This document shows, in pieces, positions 5,889-24,431 of a DNA stretch of 34,793 nt (the first letter of the stretch is position 1; each line of letters begins with the position of its first letter). The stretch lies in contig NZ_BPMA01000003.1 in the NCBI RefSeq assembly GCF_026005215.1, positions 1-34,793 on the forward strand, in the 5' to 3' direction. Below the pieces are notes generated by a model. That model worked only from the letters and a program-made list of their open reading frames with translations, had not been told where the DNA came from and made no database searches. Position numbers and translations under genes: made by a program. The DNA is from Capnocytophaga catalasegens (GTDB lineage Bacteria; Bacteroidota; Bacteroidia; Flavobacteriales; Flavobacteriaceae).

Positions 5889-6794
5889 ATGGCAAAAATA
5901 GACAAAGGACAGCGATTAGGGAGAGGACTTTCGGCTTTACTCAAAGACCCTGAAAATGATATTAAAACAATTACTGATAAAAATGCAGATAAAGTTGTAG
6001 GGCATATTGTAGAATTGGATTTAGAGTCTATTGAAGTAAATCCGAATCAACCACGAACTGTTTTTAATGAAGAAGCACTACAAGAATTAGCAACATCTAT
6101 TCGTGAGTTGGGTGTGATTCAGCCTATTACAGTTCGGAAAATGGATTTTAATAAGTATCAGCTTGTTTCGGGAGAAAGACGTTTTCGAGCATCAAAAATA
6201 CTCGGATTAGAAACGATTCCAGCCTATATCCGTATCGCCAATGACGAGGAATCTCTAATGATGGCTTTGGTTGAAAATATTCAACGACAAGACTTAGACC
6301 CTATTGAAGTGGCTCTTTCATATCAGCGAATGATTGACGAAATAAATCTCACACAAGAACAAATGAGTGAGCGTGTTGGTAAAAAACGCTCCACTATAAC
6401 TAATTACTTACGATTGTTAAAGTTAGACCCTATCATACAGACAGGTATCCGAGACGGGTTTATCAGTATGGGACACGGAAGAGCCATCATCAATATTGAA
6501 GATACTGAACAACAAATTGATATTTACAACAAAATTATTGCTCAAAATCTGTCTGTTCGTGATACAGAAGCACTTGTACAAGCGCTTAAAAATCCGAAAG
6601 AAAAAACTATTGTTTTGCCTAAAAAAATAGATATTCCTAATTTTGTAAAAGAAAGTGTAGAACATTTCCGACATTTTTTTAATGCCGATGTAACTATCAA
6701 AATAAGTAAAAATGGAAAAGGAAAATTGGAAATTCCCTTTAAATCGGAAGCAGATTTCAAACGTATTCAAAAATTATTAAAAAGTGAATCATAA
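5889..6794 (+). CDS. parB: Chromosome partitioning protein ParB
   Basis: The 301-residue protein has the ParB layout. An N-terminal RLGRGLSALL motif is the usual ParA-contacting segment. The ParB/Srx CTPase domain covers about 45-135, with the GERRFRAS box and ENIQRQDLDPIE. A helix-turn-helix with LTQEQMSERVGKKRSTITN lies near 158-176, and the C-terminal dimerisation region follows. It ends within the start of the next gene, overlapping it by 11 bp. Confidence 0.95.
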   Translation: MAKIDKGQRLGRGLSALLKDPENDIKTITDKNADKVVGHIVELDLESIEVNPNQPRTVFNEEALQELATSIRELGVIQPITVRKMDFNKYQLVSGERRFRASKILGLETIPAYIRIANDEESLMMALVENIQRQDLDPIEVALSYQRMIDEINLTQEQMSERVGKKRSTITNYLRLLKLDPIIQTGIRDGFISMGHGRAIINIEDTEQQIDIYNKIIAQNLSVRDTEALVQALKNPKEKTIVLPKKIDIPNFVKESVEHFRHFFNADVTIKISKNGKGKLEIPFKSEADFKRIQKLLKSES

Positions 6795-7389
6795 TATAAT
6801 ATTCATAGTATTTTTTTGGGGGGTTAGCTGGCAATTGATTGCTCAGCAAGATAGCTTACAAAGTACTCCAATTGATACAATGAAAGTTCGTAATATGATT
6901 GTTGAAACCAAAGAAATTAGGAAAATAACGTGGAATACTGATCCGCTTTCTCCTTCAAAAGCTGCTTTTTATTCGGCCATTTTCCCAGGTTTAGGGCAAA
7001 TTTACAACAAAAGTTATTGGAAAGTACCTATTGTTTGGGGAGCTATCGGAACGGGAATTTATTTCTATCAGCGAAATGATAAGCAATATGAAAGATATCG
7101 TACTGCCTATAAAAGACGTTTAGATGGTTTTACTGATGATGAATTTTATGAAAATCCTCGTCTGAGTGATGAAGGATTGCGTAGAGCTCAAAAATTTTAT
7201 CAACGAAACAAAGAAATTTCTCTTTTGGTAACAATTGGATTGTATGCTTTAAATATTATTGAAGCTAATGTAGATGCTCATCTTAAACAATTCAACGTTG
7301 ATGAAAATTTAACCATAGAACCTTTTATGGATTTTAATGATTTACACAAAGAACCTCGTTATGGATTAAGTTTGAATTTTAAGTTTTAA
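6784..7389 (+). CDS. DUF5683 domain protein with signal peptide
   Basis: The 201-residue protein starts at a GTG inside the 3' end of parB (11 bp overlap). That start gives a plausible hydrophobic signal peptide up to WQLIAQQ. The body has the DUF5683 core: PSKAAFYSAIFPGLGQIYN at about 58-76, a membrane segment near 80-95 and an NIIEANVDAHLKQF segment near 158-171. Its function is unknown. In many Flavobacteriaceae this family follows parA-parB and is followed by dapB and lepB; here those genes are absent and an alkaline phosphatase comes next. Confidence 0.85.
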   Translation: MNHNIIFIVFFWGVSWQLIAQQDSLQSTPIDTMKVRNMIVETKEIRKITWNTDPLSPSKAAFYSAIFPGLGQIYNKSYWKVPIVWGAIGTGIYFYQRNDKQYERYRTAYKRRLDGFTDDEFYENPRLSDEGLRRAQKFYQRNKEISLLVTIGLYALNIIEANVDAHLKQFNVDENLTIEPFMDFNDLHKEPRYGLSLNFKF

Positions 7390-7427
7390 TTTTTCGAAAA
7401 CTACATCTAATATAAATTAATTACCAA

Positions 7428-8831
7428 ATGAAAAGAAGACAGTTTTTACGCAATTCGGCAATGGCTGGTTTCGGTTCGATTCTTGTACCATCTTTTGCCC
7501 AGGCTGAAATCCTTGAAGAATTCAAAGGAAAATCAACCAAAAACATCATTTACATGGTTAGCGATGGAATGAGTGCTGGTACACTCGTAATGGCTGATTT
7601 ATATTCCAAACGTATTTTGGGAAAACCTTCTAATTGGATAAATTTATACCAGCAAAACTTAGTTACCAAAGCTTATATGGATATGCAGTCTCTCAGTTCT
7701 ATTGTAACAGATTCAGCAGCAGCAAGTTCCTCGTGGGGTGGAGGGCATCGTATTCCTAATGGGCGATTAAATGTAGGAGCCAATGGTGAAGAATATACTC
7801 CTATTCTTCAAAAATTTAAAAAGGCAGGAAAAAAAGTAGGCTGTGTAACTACTGTTATGATTACACACGCTACTCCAGCAGGTTTTTGTGTGAATAGTAA
7901 TGCCCGAAATGCTCAATCGGAAATCGCTGAAAAATATTTACAATTACGATTTGATGTAATGATGGGTGGGGGTAATACCTATTTTGATCAAAATCATCGA
8001 AAAGATAAAAAAGATTTATACAAAGATTTTGTAAATAATGGGTTTTCAGTAGTTCGTAACAAAACTGAAATGCAAAATGCTCCTAAAAATAAACCTCTTT
8101 TGGGAGTTTTTGATGAGGAAGGCTTACCATATTCTCTTGATTTTAAAACTGATACCAATTTGCATAATAAGCCTACGTTAGCTGAAATGACAGCCAAAGC
8201 CATTGAACAAATGAAAGACCATAAAAATGGTTTCGTTCTCCAAGTAGAAGGAGGAAAAGTAGATTGGGCAGCCCACGCCAATGACATAGGTGCCTTATTA
8301 TTTGACCAATTAGCTTTTGATGAAGCTGTAGGGGTTGCTATTGATTTTGCTAAAAAAGACAAAAATACACTTGTGGTTATTACCACAGATCATGGCAATG
8401 CTAATCCAGGTTTAATTTACGGAAAAAATTGTAATCAAAATTTTGATAATTTGCAAAATTTCAAACATACTAATGATTGGGTTTTACAAAATATTCTGCC
8501 TGATAGCTCTACTTCTTTTATTAAAGAATTTGTAGCTGAAAATCTTGGTAATTTGAAACTTACTAACCAACAATCCCAAGAGATTCAGTCTTACTACTCA
8601 GGAGCTGTCAAAGAAGATGGATTATACAATTACAAACATTTACCTTATAGACTCTTAGCCGAAATACAAAAAGAACATACCTCAGTTGGATGGATAAGTA
8701 TGGACCATTCTTCTGACTATGTAGAACTTGCAATGTTTGGACCTGGAAGTGAAAAACTATCTCCTTTTATCAACAACTACGAAATGCACAACTTTTTACT
8801 AAAAGCAGCTGGTGTAAATATGTTAGCTTGA
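7428..8831 (+). CDS. Alkaline phosphatase, exported with a twin-arginine type signal
   Basis: The 467-residue protein belongs to the PhoA-type alkaline phosphatase family, metal-dependent phosphomonoesterases. The first metal-binding Asp is in IYMVSDGMSAG (D46) and the nucleophile Ser is in VTDSAAASSSW near residue 90. The metal ligands EGGKVDWAAHAND, VITTDHGNANP and MDHSSDYVELAMFGPG follow in the usual order. The N-terminus MKRRQFLRNSAMAGFG has an RRxFLR twin-arginine motif and a weak hydrophobic stretch ending near FAQAEI, suggesting folded export by Tat; tatC is encoded at 11565-12377. It lies 38 bp after DUF5683 and ends at a terminator. Confidence 0.9.
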   Translation: MKRRQFLRNSAMAGFGSILVPSFAQAEILEEFKGKSTKNIIYMVSDGMSAGTLVMADLYSKRILGKPSNWINLYQQNLVTKAYMDMQSLSSIVTDSAAASSSWGGGHRIPNGRLNVGANGEEYTPILQKFKKAGKKVGCVTTVMITHATPAGFCVNSNARNAQSEIAEKYLQLRFDVMMGGGNTYFDQNHRKDKKDLYKDFVNNGFSVVRNKTEMQNAPKNKPLLGVFDEEGLPYSLDFKTDTNLHNKPTLAEMTAKAIEQMKDHKNGFVLQVEGGKVDWAAHANDIGALLFDQLAFDEAVGVAIDFAKKDKNTLVVITTDHGNANPGLIYGKNCNQNFDNLQNFKHTNDWVLQNILPDSSTSFIKEFVAENLGNLKLTNQQSQEIQSYYSGAVKEDGLYNYKHLPYRLLAEIQKEHTSVGWISMDHSSDYVELAMFGPGSEKLSPFINNYEMHNFLLKAAGVNMLA

Positions 8832-17363: not shown

Positions 17364-18968
17364 ATGGATTTCGATAATGAACATAAAAAGCATCTAAATT
17401 TATATCTGAACGGAATAGAACGTTTGTTTTACGATTTGATTGATACCTTAACTCTTTTAGCTCTTCGGGTGCAAATAAAAGATTTCTTCTTTGCTTTTGA
17501 TAAATATTCAAAAATTAAAAAATAAGCAAACAAAAGTCTTTCCATTTTTTACAAGGATTTAGATAATCAAATAAAAAAAAGTATTGATAACGAATGGATT
17601 TTTGCAAATAAAAAGAATGATTTTAATTCGTTTAGAAACAATAACCCTCGCAACCTCGAAGCCTTAGCTGTTTTTTAAAAAACGAAAAATACAGAATTTT
17701 ACAATTTCAGAACGAGTTTGGAATATCACAAAATCAACCAAAAAAGAAATGGAAATGGCTCTCGAAGTGGCTCTTTCAGAAGGTAAAAGTGCAAGCGAGT
17801 TGAGCCGTGAAATTCGTCATTTGCTTAAAAATCCTGATATACTTTTTAGGAGAGTAAAAGATAAACACGGAAATTTGGTTTTAAGTAAAGAAGTCCAAGA
17901 ACTTCATACAGGAAGAGGCATTTATCGAAGTTCTTACAAAAATGCGGTACGACTGGCTTCCAACGAGATAAATGTTGCTTACAAAACTGCTGACCTATTA
18001 CGAATACAACAAAATCCTGATATTGTAGGATACGAAATAGTGTTGTCAAAACAGCACAAGGTATATGATGTATGCGATGAACTTAAAGGAAAATACCCTA
18101 AAAATTTTCAGTTTGCAGGCTGGCACATTCAATGTAAATGCCAGTTAAAACCCATTTTAAAAAGCCAATCGGAACTGATTGCAGAACTGAAAAATGATTT
18201 AGAATTACCTGCTGAAAGTAGCAAAAATTATGTTTCAGATGTTCCTGAAAATTTTAAAAAATGGACTATTGAAAACAAAGAACGTATAAAAAACTGGAAA
18301 ACACAACCCGATTGGTGGGAGAATAATAAAGGTTTTTTGCCGTTTGGCGTGGAAAATAAAATAAAAAGTATTTTAGATATACCAGAAAAGAATACTTACA
18401 TTGCTTTTGAGCCGTTTTCTCCTATTATTATAAACAAATTGAACGAACTAAACAACAATAAGAAAAAGCAAAAACTATTAGCTGAAATAGTAAATGCACC
18501 CGAAGCTAAAATACTTTTTGAAACAGAAAATAATAAAGTTGTTTTGTTTGATAAGCACAAAGGAGTTAAAAAAGATAGTTGGCAAAACACCTTGCAAATG
18601 GCAAAGGCTTTAAGCAAAAATAAAAAAATGTAGCTTTTTTGTCCGAATATGATAATATTTCAAGTGCTGATGTTATTACTATGTTTAGAAACAGATATGT
18701 TATTGCTGATTTTAAATATTCATCAACAGATAACTATAACACTATTGCCGAAGAACTTATTAAAGGGTTTAAACAATCGGATTGCATTGTGCTAAAAATG
18801 GATAAAGGAAATTCAGGAACTTTTAGAAAGATTATAGAGCAAATTGAACGCAAAAAAGTAAAACCAAAAGATTTTATTTTGATCAATAAGTATAATAAAG
18901 TTTTAGAAATATCAAGAAAAGAAATTCAAGAAGGTAAATATAAGGCATTGGTAAAAGGATTTTTATAA
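17364..18968 (+). pseudogene. MuF-type phage head protein with C-terminal CdiA-like nuclease toxin, broken
   Basis: Read across three lesions, this is one gene of about 530 codons. Residues 1-53 (MDFDNEHKKH...) end at an in-frame TAA (17523-17525). The frame continues through ANKSLSIFYKDLDNQIKKS to a frameshift in T6A6 (17671-17682). The next frame carries the Mu gpF/SPP1 gp7 core, with LLKNPDILFRRVKDKHGNLV, YRSSYKNAVRLASNEINVAY and YPKNFQFAGWHIQCKCQ. A second frameshift in A7 (18622-18628) joins ALSKNKKNVAFLSE to a toxin domain with ADVITMF, VIADFKYSS and IKGFKQSDCIVL. This resembles the CdiA C-terminal tRNA nuclease (PD-(D/E)XK-like) group. MuF-toxin fusions are known from temperate phages. 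No neighbouring capsid genes remain. A TATTTTTG -7 box lies at 17345-17352. Confidence 0.85.
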
Positions 18969-18972
18969 AACC

Positions 18973-19091
18973 AAAAAGGCTGTTTTCACAACAGCCTTTT
19001 TAGTGAGCTTCGGGATAAAAGTACCGCTATTACGCTCGGTGGGCTTCACCCTAAACCCCTCTTACGAGTTGTTTAGCTTGTTAATTCAAGC
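18973..19091 (-). ncRNA. Candidate structured small RNA, about 118 nt
   Basis: On the minus strand a complete promoter (19097-19127) is followed by about 90 nt with much higher GC than its surroundings, and then a strong terminator hairpin. No open reading frame of note is present. Visible pairing includes GCTTG-AATTAA-CAAGC near the 5' end, GGGTTT with AAGCCC (one G-U pair) around an AGGGTG loop, ACCG with CGGT, and GAGC with GCTC. Rfam lists Bacteroidota RNAs of similar size, such as Flavo-1; I cannot confirm a match. It does not fold as one long bulged hairpin, so 6S-Flavo is unlikely. Housekeeping or island origin is open. Confidence 0.65.
18974..19000. terminator. Bidirectional terminator of the MuF pseudogene and the small RNA
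   Basis: AAAAGGCTGTT (18974-18984) and AACAGCCTTTT (18990-19000) form an 11-bp stem with a 5-nt loop. It sits 5 bp after the MuF-toxin stop on the plus strand and forms the 3' end of the candidate RNA on the minus strand. Confidence 0.85.
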
Positions 19092-19096
19092 CAGGG

Positions 19097-19127
19097 CAAA
19101 GATACGAATTATTTTTAATTTATCAAA
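19097..19127 (-). promoter_or_regulatory. Consensus promoter of the small RNA
   Basis: On the minus strand TTTG (19124-19127), exactly 19 bp, then TATCTTTG (19097-19104). This is one of the best matches to the Bacteroidota -33/-7 consensus in the window. Transcription would start near 19091. Confidence 0.75.
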
Positions 19128-19218
19128 TGTTTTGCAAAAAAATAAAATATTTTGTAAGTAATTGATTTTCAAAAAAACATCTGTAAAAGATGATTTAACA
19201 TAAATACCCTTTTTAGAG

Positions 19219-19554
19219 TTATAATACTGCTTTTTGCAAGGTTTCTCTAACAAAAGCATTGAGAGATACGCCTATATTAGTAGCTTTTTCTACTACTTTG
19301 GCGTGTAGCTCAGGAGTAAGTCGTACATTAAAACTTCCGCTGTATGATTTATGCAGAGGCAAATTATTTTCTTTACAATGTTCGATATAGTCTTCCACTG
19401 CATTGATAAAATCTTCTTTTAATTCCCCTATGGTAGTTCCTTCGTAAGTGATTAAAGTGCCTTTATTCAGTCCCAGAACCTTACCATATAATGTATTATC
19501 TTGATGTTCTATTTCGATGCTCCCAATAAATCCTTTATGTTTGAGTGTTTCCAT
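19219..19554 (-). CDS. hicB: Type II toxin-antitoxin system HicB antitoxin
   Basis: The 111-residue protein has the HicB layout. A partial RNase H-like domain (about 8-75) contains GFIGSIEIEHQDNTLYGKVLGL, TYEGTTIGELKEDFINAVEDY and CKENN. A C-terminal ribbon-helix-helix DNA-binding domain (about 77-111) contains FNVRLTPELHAKVVEKA and SLNAFVRETLQKAV. It would neutralise HicA and repress the operon. It overlaps the hicA end by 20 bp, with the toxin gene first, which is the usual order. Confidence 0.92.
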   Translation of the reverse strand: METLKHKGFIGSIEIEHQDNTLYGKVLGLNKGTLITYEGTTIGELKEDFINAVEDYIEHCKENNLPLHKSYSGSFNVRLTPELHAKVVEKATNIGVSLNAFVRETLQKAVL

Positions 19555-19822
19555 TTTCTTGTTGGTTTAAAAATTCATTTTCTGTTAGATAATTAACAAT
19601 ATCTTTAAGTGCTTTTTCTTTGATAATATTAGCAGGGTGCGGTTTGTGGGCTAAATATTGTATTTTCTTTTCAGCGTGATAAAATTTAACTCGTGAGCCT
19701 GATGTTTTCCCTTTATTACTTTTTACAAATCCCAAATGAGATAAAAGCGTTTCTAATTCATCAAAAGTAAAGTCTTTTGGTAAATCTTTTATTCGTTGTA
19801 ATAGTTTTTCTTTTCTGCTCAT
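19535..19822 (-). CDS. hicA: Type II toxin-antitoxin system HicA mRNA interferase toxin
   Basis: The 95-residue protein has a dsRBD-like fold of the HicA family. The helix FDELETLLSHLGFVKSN at about 20-36 is followed by the strand motif TSGSRVKFYHA at 40-50 and HKPHP at 59-63, then a helix ending in LTENEFL. The position usually holding the catalytic His after G-S is Arg here, as in a common GSRVxF subgroup in which the His follows a few residues later. A weak promoter (TTG-N20-CATATTTG; -7 at 19846-19853) lies upstream. The pair appears intact within otherwise decayed phage sequence. Confidence 0.9.
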   Translation of the reverse strand: MSRKEKLLQRIKDLPKDFTFDELETLLSHLGFVKSNKGKTSGSRVKFYHAEKKIQYLAHKPHPANIIKEKALKDIVNYLTENEFLNQQENGNTQT

Positions 19823-19902
19823 TGGTTGTAACTAAATTTCAGTTGCAAATATGTAACAACTTTTTTAATTGTGCAAGTTTTTTGATAAAAATTTTTCAAT
19901 AT

Positions 19903-20172
19903 TTACAAAAAACTTACATTTAGGTCTTTTGTATCTTCTTGTTGAAGCTGTTGTATTTGATCTTCGGGATTCGTTATTCCAAAGCGTTGCATACTCTCTC
20001 GTTGAGACATTAAAGGCTTGTTGCCGTTCGCTTCCATTAAAGTACGTATCATTTCTGTATCGTCATCTATATCAAATGGCGTAATAATAGGTGTTATTCT
20101 TTGTTTTTTAATTTCTTTTTCAAAAGATTATGTATCTCCGTTATCACTAATAAAAGAGTTAGTAGCTAAATT
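19903..20172 (-). pseudogene. C-terminal remnant of a phage portal protein (SPP1 gp6-like)
   Basis: A minus-strand frame reads NLATNSFISDNGDT, a stop codon (20128-20130), then SFEKEIKKQRITPIITPFDI, DDDTEMIRTLMEANGNKPLM and SQRESMQRFGITNPEDQI, ending ...DLNVSFL and a TAA at 19903-19905. The segment with multiple Gln near the end and NKPLMSQRES-type motif resembles the end of SPP1 gp6-like portal proteins, where the text I/V-S-x-x-T/S marks the C-terminal region. No N-terminal part remains. A portal normally lies upstream of muF on the same strand; here it is on the opposite strand and on the other side of hicAB, so the phage segment is rearranged. Confidence 0.55.
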
Positions 20173-20259
20173 TTATAAGTCAAAAATAAAAATATACAAT
20201 TGATAACCAAGTGTTTATATTTTATATTTTCAATAAATTATCTCAGAAAAAATCATTTA

Positions 20260-20892
20260 TTACACTAAACGGACATACAATTTTTTTTTTATCTCTTCTT
20301 TTTTTTCATCAATGATATGCCTAAATTCCTTTTTATTAATTTTTTTGTTTTCATAGTTAAAAGATTCATTTTTTAAATATATCTTTTCCCAGTCTTCTAC
20401 CTTTCTAATAAGTTTATTATTATGTTCTTTTAAATTGGCTAAATTTTCATTATTTATACTTAGAGTCTTATCATCATCTACAAAAGTATGTTTTAAACCT
20501 AATTCATGTGCTATTTCATGAAAAACAGCCTCTATAGAAAAACTAAAAATCATAGCTGAAAATAGATAAATATCTTCACGAATTACATAGGCAGCTTTTT
20601 GTTTTATACTATCATCAATAGGACTGATAAAAATAAATATATACTTTTTTAAATCTTCTGGTGAAAAACGTTTATTTTCAATATATTGATTTTCTACTAT
20701 GGATAAATATTTAGAACTATTTAAAATAGAATTATTTAAAAATACCCCTTGATGGATTAATTCTGTATCATTGATTTCTACTTCATCAATATCAAAATTA
20801 GCAGATAAATTAACTCCTATTTTAGGAAGTTGTCTCATCACTAAATTTTTAGTAAATTGATCTAAAGAATCATTTTCATTTAATTCTATCAA
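20260..20892 (-). CDS. Truncated HExxHxxGxxH zinc metalloprotease-like protein
   Basis: The frame from a TTG at 20892 has 210 residues. Its key feature is FHEIAHELGLKH (124-135), an exact metzincin-type zinc-binding motif, preceded by an IYLFSAMIFSFSIEAV helix and followed by a charged helical tail rich in Lys and Glu. The same frame stays open upstream to 21078 and reads LILTIKEEWHGEKGNEVGEY and EIQEDTLVRGIECLIEL without any ATG, GTG or earlier TTG start. This looks like the natural protein continuing, so the gene is probably 5' truncated or frameshifted against the membrane-protein frame at 20949-21350. A secreted effector or toxin role is only a guess. Confidence 0.55.
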   Translation of the reverse strand: MIELNENDSLDQFTKNLVMRQLPKIGVNLSANFDIDEVEINDTELIHQGVFLNNSILNSSKYLSIVENQYIENKRFSPEDLKKYIFIFISPIDDSIKQKAAYVIREDIYLFSAMIFSFSIEAVFHEIAHELGLKHTFVDDDKTLSINNENLANLKEHNNKLIRKVEDWEKIYLKNESFNYENKKINKKEFRHIIDEKKEEIKKKLYVRLV

Positions 20893-20948
20893 ACATTCTA
20901 TTCCCCTAACTAAAGTATCTTCTTGTATTTCAACATATTCATATTCCC

Positions 20949-21350
20949 CTACTTCATTTCCTTTCTCTCCGTGCCATTCTTCTTTGATGGTGAGTATAAG
21001 TTTTTCTTTCTTAAAATTAAAAATAGTAAAAAATATCCTAAGCTTATTGAAACTAATATAAGGACCGTACGGAGAGGTCTATATCCCCAACCCTCAATCC
21101 CAATATATAAAATTAATACTATACAAGGTATGATTGCAACTTTCTTTTTCCACGAAAACAAAATCGTAGTGAAAATTAAACTTATAGGGTATAAATAATT
21201 GAATATAAAATGAATTAATATGCCCCACGACAAGTCTCTTTTAAAAAGATAGTTTTTTTTATAAAAATCAACTCCTAAATTGTGTAGTAAAATAGCCGAT
21301 AACCAAGCTATAAAAATAGACAATATACAATACATTACTTTCCTTGCCAT
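20949..21350 (-). CDS. Small membrane protein, possibly frameshift-joined to the metalloprotease
   Basis: The 133-residue frame has four predicted membrane helices (about 5-22, 46-64, 71-88, 96-112). It ends with a charged tail SPSKKNGTERKEMK that looks unlike the rest. The tail overlaps, in another frame, the upstream extension of the metalloprotease; the change of character falls at the poly-A/T tract 21001-21010. The ATG overlaps the end of a short upstream fragment by 16 bp. No family is recognised. It may be an immunity-type membrane protein or the N-terminal half of a broken membrane-anchored protease. Confidence 0.5.
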   Translation of the reverse strand: MARKVMYCILSIFIAWLSAILLHNLGVDFYKKNYLFKRDLSWGILIHFIFNYLYPISLIFTTILFSWKKKVAIIPCIVLILYIGIEGWGYRPLRTVLILVSISLGYFLLFLILRKKNLYSPSKKNGTERKEMK

Positions 21351-21520
21351 AAGTGCTTGTATTTATTATATTCTACTTCTGTTAGAAAAACACCTAATTC
21401 TTTGGGAGAATAATCTGTTTTTAAAGGTTCGTAACTTTTTTTATATTCCTTTCCAAGAATAGTATGAGAGTATGATTTTTGAATAAATCTTTTTGATGTC
21501 CATATATTTGTTATAAGTGG
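21335..21520 (-). pseudogene. 3' remnant of an unknown gene
   Basis: A minus-strand frame of about 62 codons has no usable start and ends KYKHLWQGK and TAA at 21335-21337. It contains YSPKELGVFLTEVEYNKY, which looks like true protein. It overlaps the next gene's ATG by 16 bp, as in a translationally coupled pair. Its 5' part is missing, cut where the methyltransferase cassette begins. The product is unknown. Confidence 0.4.
21479..21510 (+). promoter_or_regulatory. Possible promoter of the methyltransferase/Mom cassette
   Basis: TTG (21479-21481), 21 bp, then TATATTTG (21503-21510) on the plus strand, 43 bp before the ATG at 21554. The spacer is slightly long. Confidence 0.4.
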
Positions 21521-21553
21521 TCAGAGTTGCAAAATTACAAAAAAATTAGAATT

Positions 21554-22607
21554 ATGAAATATAACTATACTTGGAAATTATCAGAAACAAATTTTACCAA
21601 AGAAAAAGGTAAGGTTTTTAGTTGTTTTGCCTGTGGTGGAGGCTCGACAATGGGGTATAAATTGGTTGGTTTTGACGTGATTGGCTTTAATGAAATAGAC
21701 CCTCGAATGGCAAATTTATACATCAAAAATCATCAACCAAAGTATCAATTTGTGGAAGCTATACAAGATTTTGTGAAATGGGACGAATACCCTGAAGAAC
21801 TCTATCATTTGGATATTTTGGACGGTTCTCCACCGTGTAGCTCGTTCAGCGTTGCAGGCAAACGAGAACAAGACTGGGGTAAAGAAAAGCAATTCTGTGA
21901 AGGACAAGCCAAACAAGTGCTTGATACACTTTTCTTTGATTTTATTGCTTTGGCAGAAAAATTACAACCTAAAAATCGTGATTGCCGAAAATGTCAAAGG
22001 ATTAACCATTGGTAAGGCAAAAGACTATCTATATCGCATTTTGTCCGAATTTGACAAAGCAGGGTACAAGGTAAATCGCTACCTATTAGACGCTTCAAAA
22101 ATGGGAGTTCCACAGCGTAGAGAAAGAGTGTTTTTTGTAGCTGTTCGCAAGGATTTAGCTCATAAAGTAACGGATTTAGTGTTGAATTTTGACCTTTTGC
22201 CAATACCATTCAAAGCGATAAAAACTAATGAAAATACGACAAGTTTTACCGACCACGACCGCCGCATTTGGGACAACCGAAAACAAGGCGACCGTTCCTA
22301 TTCCGATGTTTTAAAACGTATTGAAAACCGAGATAGTAATTTCAATGCTCGGTTTGTATATGATGATAAAGTACCTTCAACCATAGTAGCTTCGAGTGGC
22401 TCTAAAATGACACTTTTTAGCGAACCTCGAAAAATGAACCACACGGAACTGATTAAATGTCAATCGTTCCCATTAGATTATGATTTTGGTACAAAAACGT
22501 ATTCGTTTGTGCAATATGTGCTGGGAATGAGCGTTCCACCCGTAATGATAGCTAATTTAATAAATGAAGTGTATAACCAATGGAAAAATATTTTTATAAA
22601 TGAATGA
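21554..22607 (+). pseudogene. DNA (cytosine-5-)-methyltransferase, frameshifted
   Basis: Both halves belong to one C5-methyltransferase. The first (from ATG 21554) has motif I FACGGGSTMGY at 25-35, the acidic motif II end NEIDP and motif IV DGSPPCSSFS with catalytic C95. The frame is lost in A5 at 21971-21975: the expected ...LQPKIVIAENVKG becomes LQPKNRDCRK and stops at 22015. The other frame resumes with motif VI ENVKG, motif VIII MGVPQRRERVFF, a short target-recognition region (about 22210-22400), and motifs IX-X ending SVPPVMIANLINEVYNQW. Removing one A would give an intact protein of about 350 residues. Its stop overlaps the next start by 8 bp. No restriction nuclease is nearby, so it is a solitary, phage-type methyltransferase. 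Confidence 0.88.
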
Positions 22608-23352
22608 AATAAAACGATTTATCGTACAAAGTAATACAATGGGAAACTTAGTGATAAAGCGAGTTTCCAAAGAGAAAGCAAAACAAATGATTATTGAAAA
22701 TCATTACTCCCACAAGTGGAACAATGCAAGTTTTGGTTTGTTTAATTATGGGATATTTAGAGAACATTACGAAGCTGATAATGAGTGTTTAAGAGTAGCA
22801 GTTTATGGATATATGATGCACCCCAAGGCACATTATTTTACGCACCCAAATCCTATGGCAATGATGTTAGAACTCAATCGTATGTGGATAAGCGATGAGT
22901 TGGGTAAAAATGCCGAAACGATACTTATCAGTCGTTCGCTCAAACTATTACGAGAGGATTGTCTGAATTGTGTTGCGGTTCAGTCTTTTGCTGATGGGCG
23001 TTTAGGTTGTGGAACGATATATAAAGCAGCAAATTTTAAGTACTTCGGGGGTCATAAAACAACTTTCGTTAAAAACAAGCGTACAGGCGAAATCAACCAC
23101 GAAATGAACTTCACCCGCATGGATAGCAAAAGTATCTACCTGCGTAATAATTTGGCATATTTGTTAGGTGATTTGGAGGTTTTTCAAGTAGATACTTATC
23201 GATACATTTTTCCGTTGTGCAAGCGGTTTAGGTATAACAAAGCACAGCAATCTTACCCTGCCTACAACAAAGGGATTACACCCATTAAATGGCAACGAGA
23301 CCGCAAGCTCATCAAAGAACGGCTTATTAAGTTTATCAACGAAATTGAATAA
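22600..23352 (+). CDS. Mom-like DNA adenine hypermodification protein
   Basis: The 250-residue protein has the GNAT-like pattern of phage Mu Mom, which adds a methylcarbamoyl group to adenine in phage DNA to evade restriction. Visible motifs are ENHYSHKWNNASFGLFNYG (33-51), LELNRMWISD (90-99), a helix with ILISRSLKLLRE, and SFADGRLGCGTIYKAANFKYFGG (129-151). These last match the A-D...G-T-I-Y-K-A.N-F segment of Mom. The C-terminus is basic with YNKGITPIKWQRDRKL. The ATG at 22600 overlaps the methyltransferase stop by 8 bp, indicating coupled translation. No com-like regulator is visible. The reading frame is intact. Confidence 0.75.
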   Translation: MNEIKRFIVQSNTMGNLVIKRVSKEKAKQMIIENHYSHKWNNASFGLFNYGIFREHYEADNECLRVAVYGYMMHPKAHYFTHPNPMAMMLELNRMWISDELGKNAETILISRSLKLLREDCLNCVAVQSFADGRLGCGTIYKAANFKYFGGHKTTFVKNKRTGEINHEMNFTRMDSKSIYLRNNLAYLLGDLEVFQVDTYRYIFPLCKRFRYNKAQQSYPAYNKGITPIKWQRDRKLIKERLIKFINEIE

Positions 23353-23354
23353 AA

Positions 23355-23380
23355 AAAACACAGTTTTGAAGCCGTGTTTT
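23355..23380 (+). terminator. Terminator after the Mom-like gene
   Basis: AAAACAC (23355-23361) and GTGTTTT (23374-23380) form a 7-bp stem starting 3 bp after the stop codon, followed by AGAGTTTTATT. Confidence 0.6.
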
Positions 23381-23428
23381 AGAGTTTTATTGTATATTTG
23401 CCATACGATAACAAAATCCTCAAAAAAT

Positions 23429-23465
23429 GTACATTTCATTTTGAAAATTGGTACATTTCATTTTG
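23429..23465. repeat. Direct repeat resembling an IS21-family terminus
   Basis: GTACATTTCATTTTG occurs at 23429-23443 and again at 23451-23465, offset by 22 bp. Multiple TGTACATTT/GGTACATTT repeats are a feature of IS21-family ends. No istA or istB gene is next to it, so it would be an orphan end. It sits at the right border of the accessory island. The surrounding 23381-23567 holds nothing else visible. Confidence 0.35.
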
Positions 23466-23567
23466 CGGAATATACATAATCTGTAAAATTCCAGCATTGT
23501 AAGATTTATCGATTTCGGATATTTCTATATTTTTACTACAAATTATAACCACTATAAAATACAGATT

Positions 23568-24431
23568 TTATGCTTGTTTTTTGATAAAATTATAAATAAT
23601 TTCAATGACTGTCTTGTCAGCCAAAATACGTCTATGTCCTAAGCCTTGTGTTATGAAAAGTTCACTATCAGGTTTATTTTTATGAATGTTATACGCACAT
23701 TTTACAGGGACATCAATATCATCTTGGTCATGAATAATTAATAAAGGTTGCTTGATATTTTTAACAGCTACAGATATTGAATATTCGTTAATTGACTCTT
23801 CCAATTTTTTATCTAAATAATTATGAATACTCTGCCATACCTCTTGATTCATCTGCATTTTTTTGACAAAATCATCAATAATATCTGTTACTAAATCTCC
23901 TCCGCTAATAGCAATAACCCAAGGAGTTTTAAAGCCCAAACGTGTTGCATTGATTGAAGACATTGCTCCTAATGAATGCCCTATTATTCCATCAAAAGTA
24001 TAGTGTTTTCCTATTTCAAGAATACTTAGTACAAATTCTTTCATATAGGTTTTATTTCCTGGAGATTTTCCGTGACAAGGTGCATCAAAACTGATGATTT
24101 CATATCCTTTTGAAACTAAAAAATCTGCCAAAGAGAATAATTGTGTTCCTCGCCCACTCCATCCATGTACAAGTAAAATTCGTTTTTGTCCTTTTCCATA
24201 TTTATATATATTGATTTCTTTTTTTATAGAAGGAATATATAAAAAATATTGTTGGCTATTTTTATCCATCGGATATTCTCGCTTTGGCATCGGAAATTTA
24301 AGAGGTTTAAAAAAAAGCCAGATAGCATATTTTGAAGACAATTTATTAGAAATAAGTTGTAAAAACTTTCCGATTTTTATATATAGTTTAGGAATTTCAA
24401 TAGTTACTTTTGGGTTAGATGTATTATTCAT
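23568..24431 (-). CDS. Alpha/beta hydrolase
   Basis: The 287-residue protein is a serine hydrolase of the alpha/beta fold. The oxyanion segment HGWSGRG is at 89-95, the nucleophile elbow GHSLGA puts Ser at 153, the acid is in HDQDDIDVP (D238) and the catalytic His is H266 in GLGHRRIL. The first 60 residues are basic with a mildly hydrophobic stretch but no clear signal peptide. It resembles the esterase/thioesterase-like BEM46 or YqiA groups; the substrate is unknown. It is the first intact core-type gene to the right of the phage island and stands alone. Confidence 0.85.
   Translation of the reverse strand: MNNTSNPKVTIEIPKLYIKIGKFLQLISNKLSSKYAIWLFFKPLKFPMPKREYPMDKNSQQYFLYIPSIKKEINIYKYGKGQKRILLVHGWSGRGTQLFSLADFLVSKGYEIISFDAPCHGKSPGNKTYMKEFVLSILEIGKHYTFDGIIGHSLGAMSSINATRLGFKTPWVIAISGGDLVTDIIDDFVKKMQMNQEVWQSIHNYLDKKLEESINEYSISVAVKNIKQPLLIIHDQDDIDVPVKCAYNIHKNKPDSELFITQGLGHRRILADKTVIEIIYNFIKKQA

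Follow-up and report, generated by a model that had tools for sequence, protein, structure and literature searches.

The window (34,793 nucleotides; contig C3 of genome G000, Capnocytophaga catalasegens) very probably carries the right-end DNA modification slot of a Mu-like transposable Capnocytophaga prophage, now a short relic, in which modification enzymes are exchangeable, the C5-cytosine methyltransferase gene is broken and the Mom gene is intact. The enzyme families, the Mom fold, the gene overlap, the position at the right end and the exchange of neighbours were observed directly. Compared genomes are designated G### and compared loci or contigs L###.

Mom provides the classic case of adenine hypermodification and is known mostly from Mu; an excerpt of PMC12707154 reports Mu Mom to be toxic on expression. 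The Mom-family gene of the window (22600-23352, plus strand) was intact and encoded 250 aa. Its product matched PF25680 nearly over the full length (positions 1-201 of 202; E = 8.4e-60; 202 bits, cut-off 27) and phrog_1384 (E = 3e-38), and had the Mom variant of the GNAT fold, the same fold as in structure 8BV8; PADLOC and NCBIfam models did not match it. An intact, Mom-like enzyme had been proposed in the initial annotation, which would have been given up had Mom been matched neither by profile nor by structure, and both matches were obtained. Mu Mom and the window Mom were 32% identical. Alignment of Mu Mom with 17 relatives (L025 was left out because its Mom stretch contains a stop) gave 38 invariant columns. 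At the site of Mu S124, the residue changed in the inactive S124A structure 8BV8, 18/18 sequences had S or T (T107 in the window). The dN/dS of Mom was 0.04-0.08 in 10 of 15 pairs, whereas the other 5, all involving L024, had saturated dS; by these ratios Mom is under strong purifying selection, the comparisons with the window being rough (dS > 1). By homology with known Mom, adenine is a plausible target. Mom occurred in 4/20 genomes of the genus (the window's own, G003, G019 and, as a relic, G006), in 5/395 genomes of the order (own included; 2 of the 5 were fragments) and in 1/395 genomes of the phylum sample, the window's own. The Mom of G019 contig C60 matched that of the window at 84%, and L013, a contig of a Capnocytophaga MAG, was equal to C60 in length and match.

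The C5-cytosine DNA methyltransferase gene was present in two pieces, both on the plus strand. The N-terminal piece (21554-22015, openable from TTG 21527) had motifs I and IV, matched positions 2-104 of the PF00145 profile (E = 4.2e-16), shared 86% identity with the intact G003 enzyme over residues 1-140 of the latter and ended at a premature stop (22013-22015) past the frame change. The C-terminal piece (21975-22607, stop codon 22605-22607), in another frame, had motifs VI, VIII and X, matched profile positions 105-322 (E = 1.4e-26) and shared 80% identity with G003 residues 140-350. Motifs I, IV, VI, VIII and X were assigned to the pieces by the motif patterns of the family. The PF00145 stretches matched by the two pieces, each searched separately, adjoined; PF00145 together with the five catalytic motifs was covered only by both pieces combined, and the gene had no single ORF able to yield an active C5 enzyme. 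Neither piece alone is expected to be functional, because motifs I and IV are in the first and VI, VIII and X in the second. A C5-methyltransferase with a frame shift had been read from the DNA initially, and both parts of that reading stood, with PF00145 matched by both pieces (E near 4e-16 and 1e-26) and the pieces in different frames.

The frame break lay between motifs IV and VI with a +1 frame relation and homopolymer A runs at the break, and the split fits a one-base change in the A-rich stretch near 21957-21975. The intact G003 relative (350 aa; PF00145 E = 1.1e-51) had an identical overlap with mom, and the C5 gene was in a single frame in G003, L062, L063, L109 and L026. Against four intact relatives, dN/dS was 0.05-0.09 and 0.10-0.14 for the two pieces, values which are rough because dS exceeded 1 in every comparison involving the window, and both pieces were free of additional stops. 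These ratios suggest strong purifying selection on both pieces, which fits either an assembly error or a very recent break. Real decay is favoured slightly, because the surrounding relic is decayed.

The methyltransferase gene ended within the start of mom, with an overlap of 8 bp (22600-22607, plus strand; C5 stop at 22605-22607, mom ATG at 22600). The same overlap occurred in G003 and L023 (C5 type) and in G019/L013 (D12 type), and the D12 methyltransferase of contig C19 ended 2 bases before the mom start. Judged by its recurrence in G003, where C5 is open, and in L023, where C5 is internally deleted, the overlap is beyond chance, and the junction of methyltransferase and mom described initially was corroborated. 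Translation of mom is probably coupled to the methyltransferase, because the methyltransferase gene ends inside the mom start, where Mu has com; if the coupling is real, the early stop at 22013-22015 would reduce Mom too. In Mu, Com is a zinc-finger protein that activates translation of mom mRNA, according to an excerpt of PMC6483171, and com overlaps mom in the Mu record. No CxxC-x(8-22)-CxxC pattern of a Com homologue was found within 450 nt upstream of mom in the window, where a Com zinc ribbon gene would be directly upstream in a Mu com-mom arrangement; the Com-type CxxC-CxxC pattern upstream of mom was found only in Mu and PAN70 (2/29 loci checked, of 44 sequences).

Past the mom stop, the right terminus of a Mu-like prophage (23353-23469, plus strand) ended with GCGGA at 23469, and these 117 bp were found again in further genomes of the genus, in most cases immediately downstream of phage cargo genes. 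Thirteen right ends were aligned, namely 12 of the 13 genus places that matched query 1-122 or more plus the viral contig L063; G016:1275649 was not among them and shorter matches were left out. A terminator-like inverted repeat directly 3' of the mom stop (23355-23380, plus strand; from the alignment, arms read by eye) had counterparts in the 13 aligned ends. All 13 shared two copies of GTACATTTCATTTTG or close variants, followed by the common end GCGGA; in the window, the two 15-bp direct repeats were at 23429 and 23451. The sequence ATATA (23470-23474) came after the terminus, and W-TATA came after 13/13 aligned ends and is therefore probably the insertion target, as judged from the right ends. 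The window thus had the conserved right end and common target of a Mu-like prophage, and the phage origin proposed initially is accounted for by this right end. Mu-like prophages were reportedly treated by Morgan et al. in 2002. Within the right end, TATATTTG at 23393-23400 fitted the Bacteroidota -7 promoter element (TANNTTTG), pointed outward and had similar letters in many of the 13 ends. Positions 23472-23541, at or just past the prophage end, were 93% identical to places in G002, G004, G010 and G013 and represent a conserved chromosomal element next to the insertion.

To the left of the cassette were a 5'-truncated Mu F-like gene and small genes. The gene of the phage Mu F-like head protein (17749-18633, plus strand; phrog_7625 head morphogenesis, E = 2.5e-48; PF04233, E = 0.0038, below cut-off) lacked its 5' part and probably represents the left remains of the same relic. 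It was followed by the gene of a CdiA_C-like small protein (18639-18968, plus strand; PF18451, E = 2.1e-5, just under cut-off); a CdiA_C-like domain was weakly seen at the Mu F C-terminus of L108:8983-10233 (E = 0.002) and L115:3859-5214 (E = 0.0016). Neither the scanned ORFs nor the ORF list, read by eye, gave a recognisable transposase or left end in the window, so that the phage assignment draws on the right end and the weak Mu F match. A guessed left end (start of contig G015:C124) had no other match among the compared DNA. Searches of the window with the L108 portal, Mu F and three neighbouring genes, and with the L115 Mu F, gave nothing at E = 0.01, and the relic may therefore derive from another head-gene lineage. 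The two flanks of the window mapped apart in other species (e.g. G018, G003), and no empty site that would fix the left border was found. A HicB/HicA pair (19219-19822, minus strand) was inside the relic, and a metallopeptidase-like protein (Astacin E = 2.5e-4, below cut-off) was encoded at 20260-20892 on the minus strand.

The scan for nuclease families covered the cassette and 7 further, larger ORFs at 17749-24431. None of the 7 matched a restriction endonuclease family, which agrees with the absence of a nuclease stated initially, and an endonuclease gene beside the methyltransferase, as in type II restriction-modification, was not found among the scanned ORFs of that interval. In G006:C181 (L010:209-1237), a Mrr_cat-like nuclease gene (E = 0.001, just below cut-off) adjoined C5 and Mom relics.

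Judged by its gene content, the right end is an exchange site where such phages swap DNA-marking enzymes. Among the 13 aligned ends, C5-Mom was present in two (window; G003 L105) and D12-Mom in two (contig C19 of G000; G019 L110), C5 with a second kind of D12 enzyme in one (G008), and C5 with ATPase, GNAT and formyltransferase-like genes in two (L063; G015). D12 was directly at the end in two (G009; G003 L113, truncated) and followed by other ORFs in one (G019 L115), and the remaining ends had a Mom fragment (G003 L112), a formyltransferase-like fragment (G016 L117) or nothing recognised (G016 L116). Contig C19 of the same genome held a second cassette (L005:109-1688), a D12-class N6-adenine methyltransferase followed by Mom, and terminated at the right end and TTATA. 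In G014 (C4:375872-376441), a distant C5 methyltransferase match (31%) directly adjoined a short right-end match and is perhaps a further cargo kind.

A methyltransferase or its remains lay directly upstream in 7 of 44 distinct Mom sequences, of the C5 type in the window, G003, L026, L023 (internally deleted) and G006 (both genes relics), and of the D12 type in G019 and C19, giving 5 C5-Mom pairs. The other 37 had no adjacent methyltransferase by tblastn and motif search, some of them having less than 1.5 kb upstream or being fragments or distant Moms. Six Moms, that of the window included, were 77% or more identical to the window Mom; 5 of them had a methyltransferase or remains directly upstream, and 4 of these 5 had the 8-bp overlap seen in the window, with both methyltransferase classes represented. 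The L024 Mom (78%) had none beside it. By annotation, 0/7 other Mom phages had an adjacent methyltransferase, and in one of the 7, Enterococcus phage 159, an annotated methyltransferase was near Mom with a polymerase gene between. The reading of a fixed dual-mark cassette in the initial annotation was not supported, because the neighbour may be C5 or D12, 37/44 Moms had no methyltransferase seen alongside and the C5 family of the window also occurred without Mom (G008, G015, L062, L063).

The state of the genes differed among pairs. C5 was broken and Mom open in the window, C5 was open and Mom had an in-frame stop in G003, C5 was deleted inside and Mom open in L023, and both were fragments in G006; only in the viral contig L026, of the 5 C5-Mom pairs, were both open, as they were in the two D12-Mom pairs. 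Intact copies of each gene therefore exist. The initial suggestion of both marks in host DNA found no support, because C5 is broken here and 4/5 C5-Mom pairs have a broken, deleted or fragmentary partner. No C5-Mom pair was found in the full-text literature searched, which excluded subscription journals and preprints; Mom in the right-end slot, its pairing with C5 or D12 and their exchange, none of which was found there, are taken as new.

In L063 (7240-9057) and G015, the place of Mom was occupied by genes for an ABC-ATPase, a GNAT domain and a Formyl_trans_N protein, which were also present at L109:12212-14009 and in L123-L170. Search with the Formyl_trans_N protein gave 48 viral loci, with GNAT upstream in 48/48 and the ATPase in 46/48, the two loci without ATPase beginning inside GNAT. 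GNAT was in the -1 frame relative to the ATPase in 49 of the 50 rows holding both, which represent 47 places (L063/L123 and L049/L109 are the same places) and include several close relatives; in 49/49 (raw count), the ATPase/GNAT overlap held an in-frame heptamer, either A AAA AAA or A AAA AAG. The two were fused in one frame in Porphyromonas phage 011a, Gordonia phage Axumite and L039, an unrelated viral contig in which the fusion (6596-7678; phrog_11143) was upstream of Mom with one small ORF between. The model of the formyltransferase-like protein (pLDDT 79) matched the folds of 10-formyl-THF hydrolase and Fmt (best Foldseek E = 5e-15); because metabolic formyltransferases share this fold, a DNA target is suggested by position alone. 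Two Porphyromonas gingivalis phages, compared as L171 (BK068092) and L004 (BK068093), differed in their right ends, with Mom in 012a and ATPase-GNAT with formyltransferase in 011a. It is proposed tentatively, as a possibility, that the Bacteroidota Mu-like right end is an exchange site and the ABC-ATPase/GNAT/formyltransferase-like set an undescribed system of DNA hypermodification, in which conserved -1 programmed frameshifting would join ATPase and GNAT; no such modification system was found in the full-text literature, subscription journals and preprints excluded.

In a working phage, a single transcript late in infection would give first the methyltransferase and then Mom, and translation of mom would be coupled to the upstream methyltransferase, which occupies the place of com in Mu. 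The marks would be 5-methylcytosine and a group of the Mu Mom type on adenine, and would shield phage DNA from host restriction. Upstream and downstream enzymes would be exchangeable between phages, and it is plausible that such exchange serves escape from restriction.

Joining of the two methyltransferase frames by programmed frameshifting was rejected as extremely improbable; the frames are one base apart and an A-rich stretch is present, but the relation is +1 and the five relatives are unsplit. A working dual-mark cassette is doubtful; on that reading the frame change would be an error of assembly, with 5-methylcytosine and modified adenine both present in host or phage DNA. The low dN/dS of the C5 pieces (0.05-0.14, rough), the lack of a further stop, the known intact relatives and the A runs at the break agree with it, but the surrounding relic is decayed (the 5' part of Mu F gone, no recognisable transposase in the window), the partners in G003, L023 and G006 are damaged differently, and Mu Mom is said in an excerpt of PMC12707154 to be silent in lysogens.

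That C5 and Mom are chance neighbours at a cargo site, with no functional link, is unlikely: the 37/44 Moms with no methyltransferase seen alongside, the turnover of cargo and the occurrence of C5 without Mom are as such a reading predicts, but not the upstream methyltransferase in 5/6 close Moms, 4 with the 8-bp overlap. A host DNA modification locus, domesticated and retained in a defensive or regulatory role once the phage was lost, is quite improbable. Short right-end relics with cassette genes do persist in more than one genome (window; G003, where about 5 kb precede genes that look chromosomal by eye) and Mom is under purifying selection, but different partners are broken in different genomes, the flanks map apart (e.g. 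G018, G003) with no common chromosomal place, and Mom is in only 4/20 species of the genus, one a relic. The exchangeable slot of a decayed prophage is the preferred reading. Mom behind exchangeable methyltransferases offers a natural set for testing additive protection by two marks, and a methyltransferase in the place of com allows study of mom control without Com. The slot also leads to other enzymes, namely the ATPase/GNAT/formyltransferase set, which may write undescribed DNA marks, and this side finding may matter more than the C5-Mom pair.

The window shares with Mu com-mom (Muvirus) the Mom family, the 8BV8 fold, the position as last gene before the right end and the overlap with the preceding gene; it differs in the 32% Mom identity, the lack of a Com-type pattern and the DNA methyltransferase in the place of com. 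According to excerpts of PMC7761591, most fF4-like transposable prophages of Bacteroidetes have a DNA modification gene among their final ORFs, close to the right end as in the window, whereas the excerpts name DNA adenine methylase or methyltransferase, with Mom only as a Mu gene and no C5 enzyme. Elizabethkingia phage TCUEAP3 and Porphyromonas phages 012a-015a, with records of about 33-34 kb, have a Mom relative (59-63% identity) near the right end of the record, but the two records inspected, those of TCUEAP3 and 012a, had no annotated methyltransferase next to it. In these two phages, as in Mu, the mom gene comes last or almost last. The orphan C5 methyltransferases of Cellulophaga phi18:3 and of the Flavobacterium tooticki and FpV9 phage groups were 51-55% identical to the intact G003 relative of the window enzyme.
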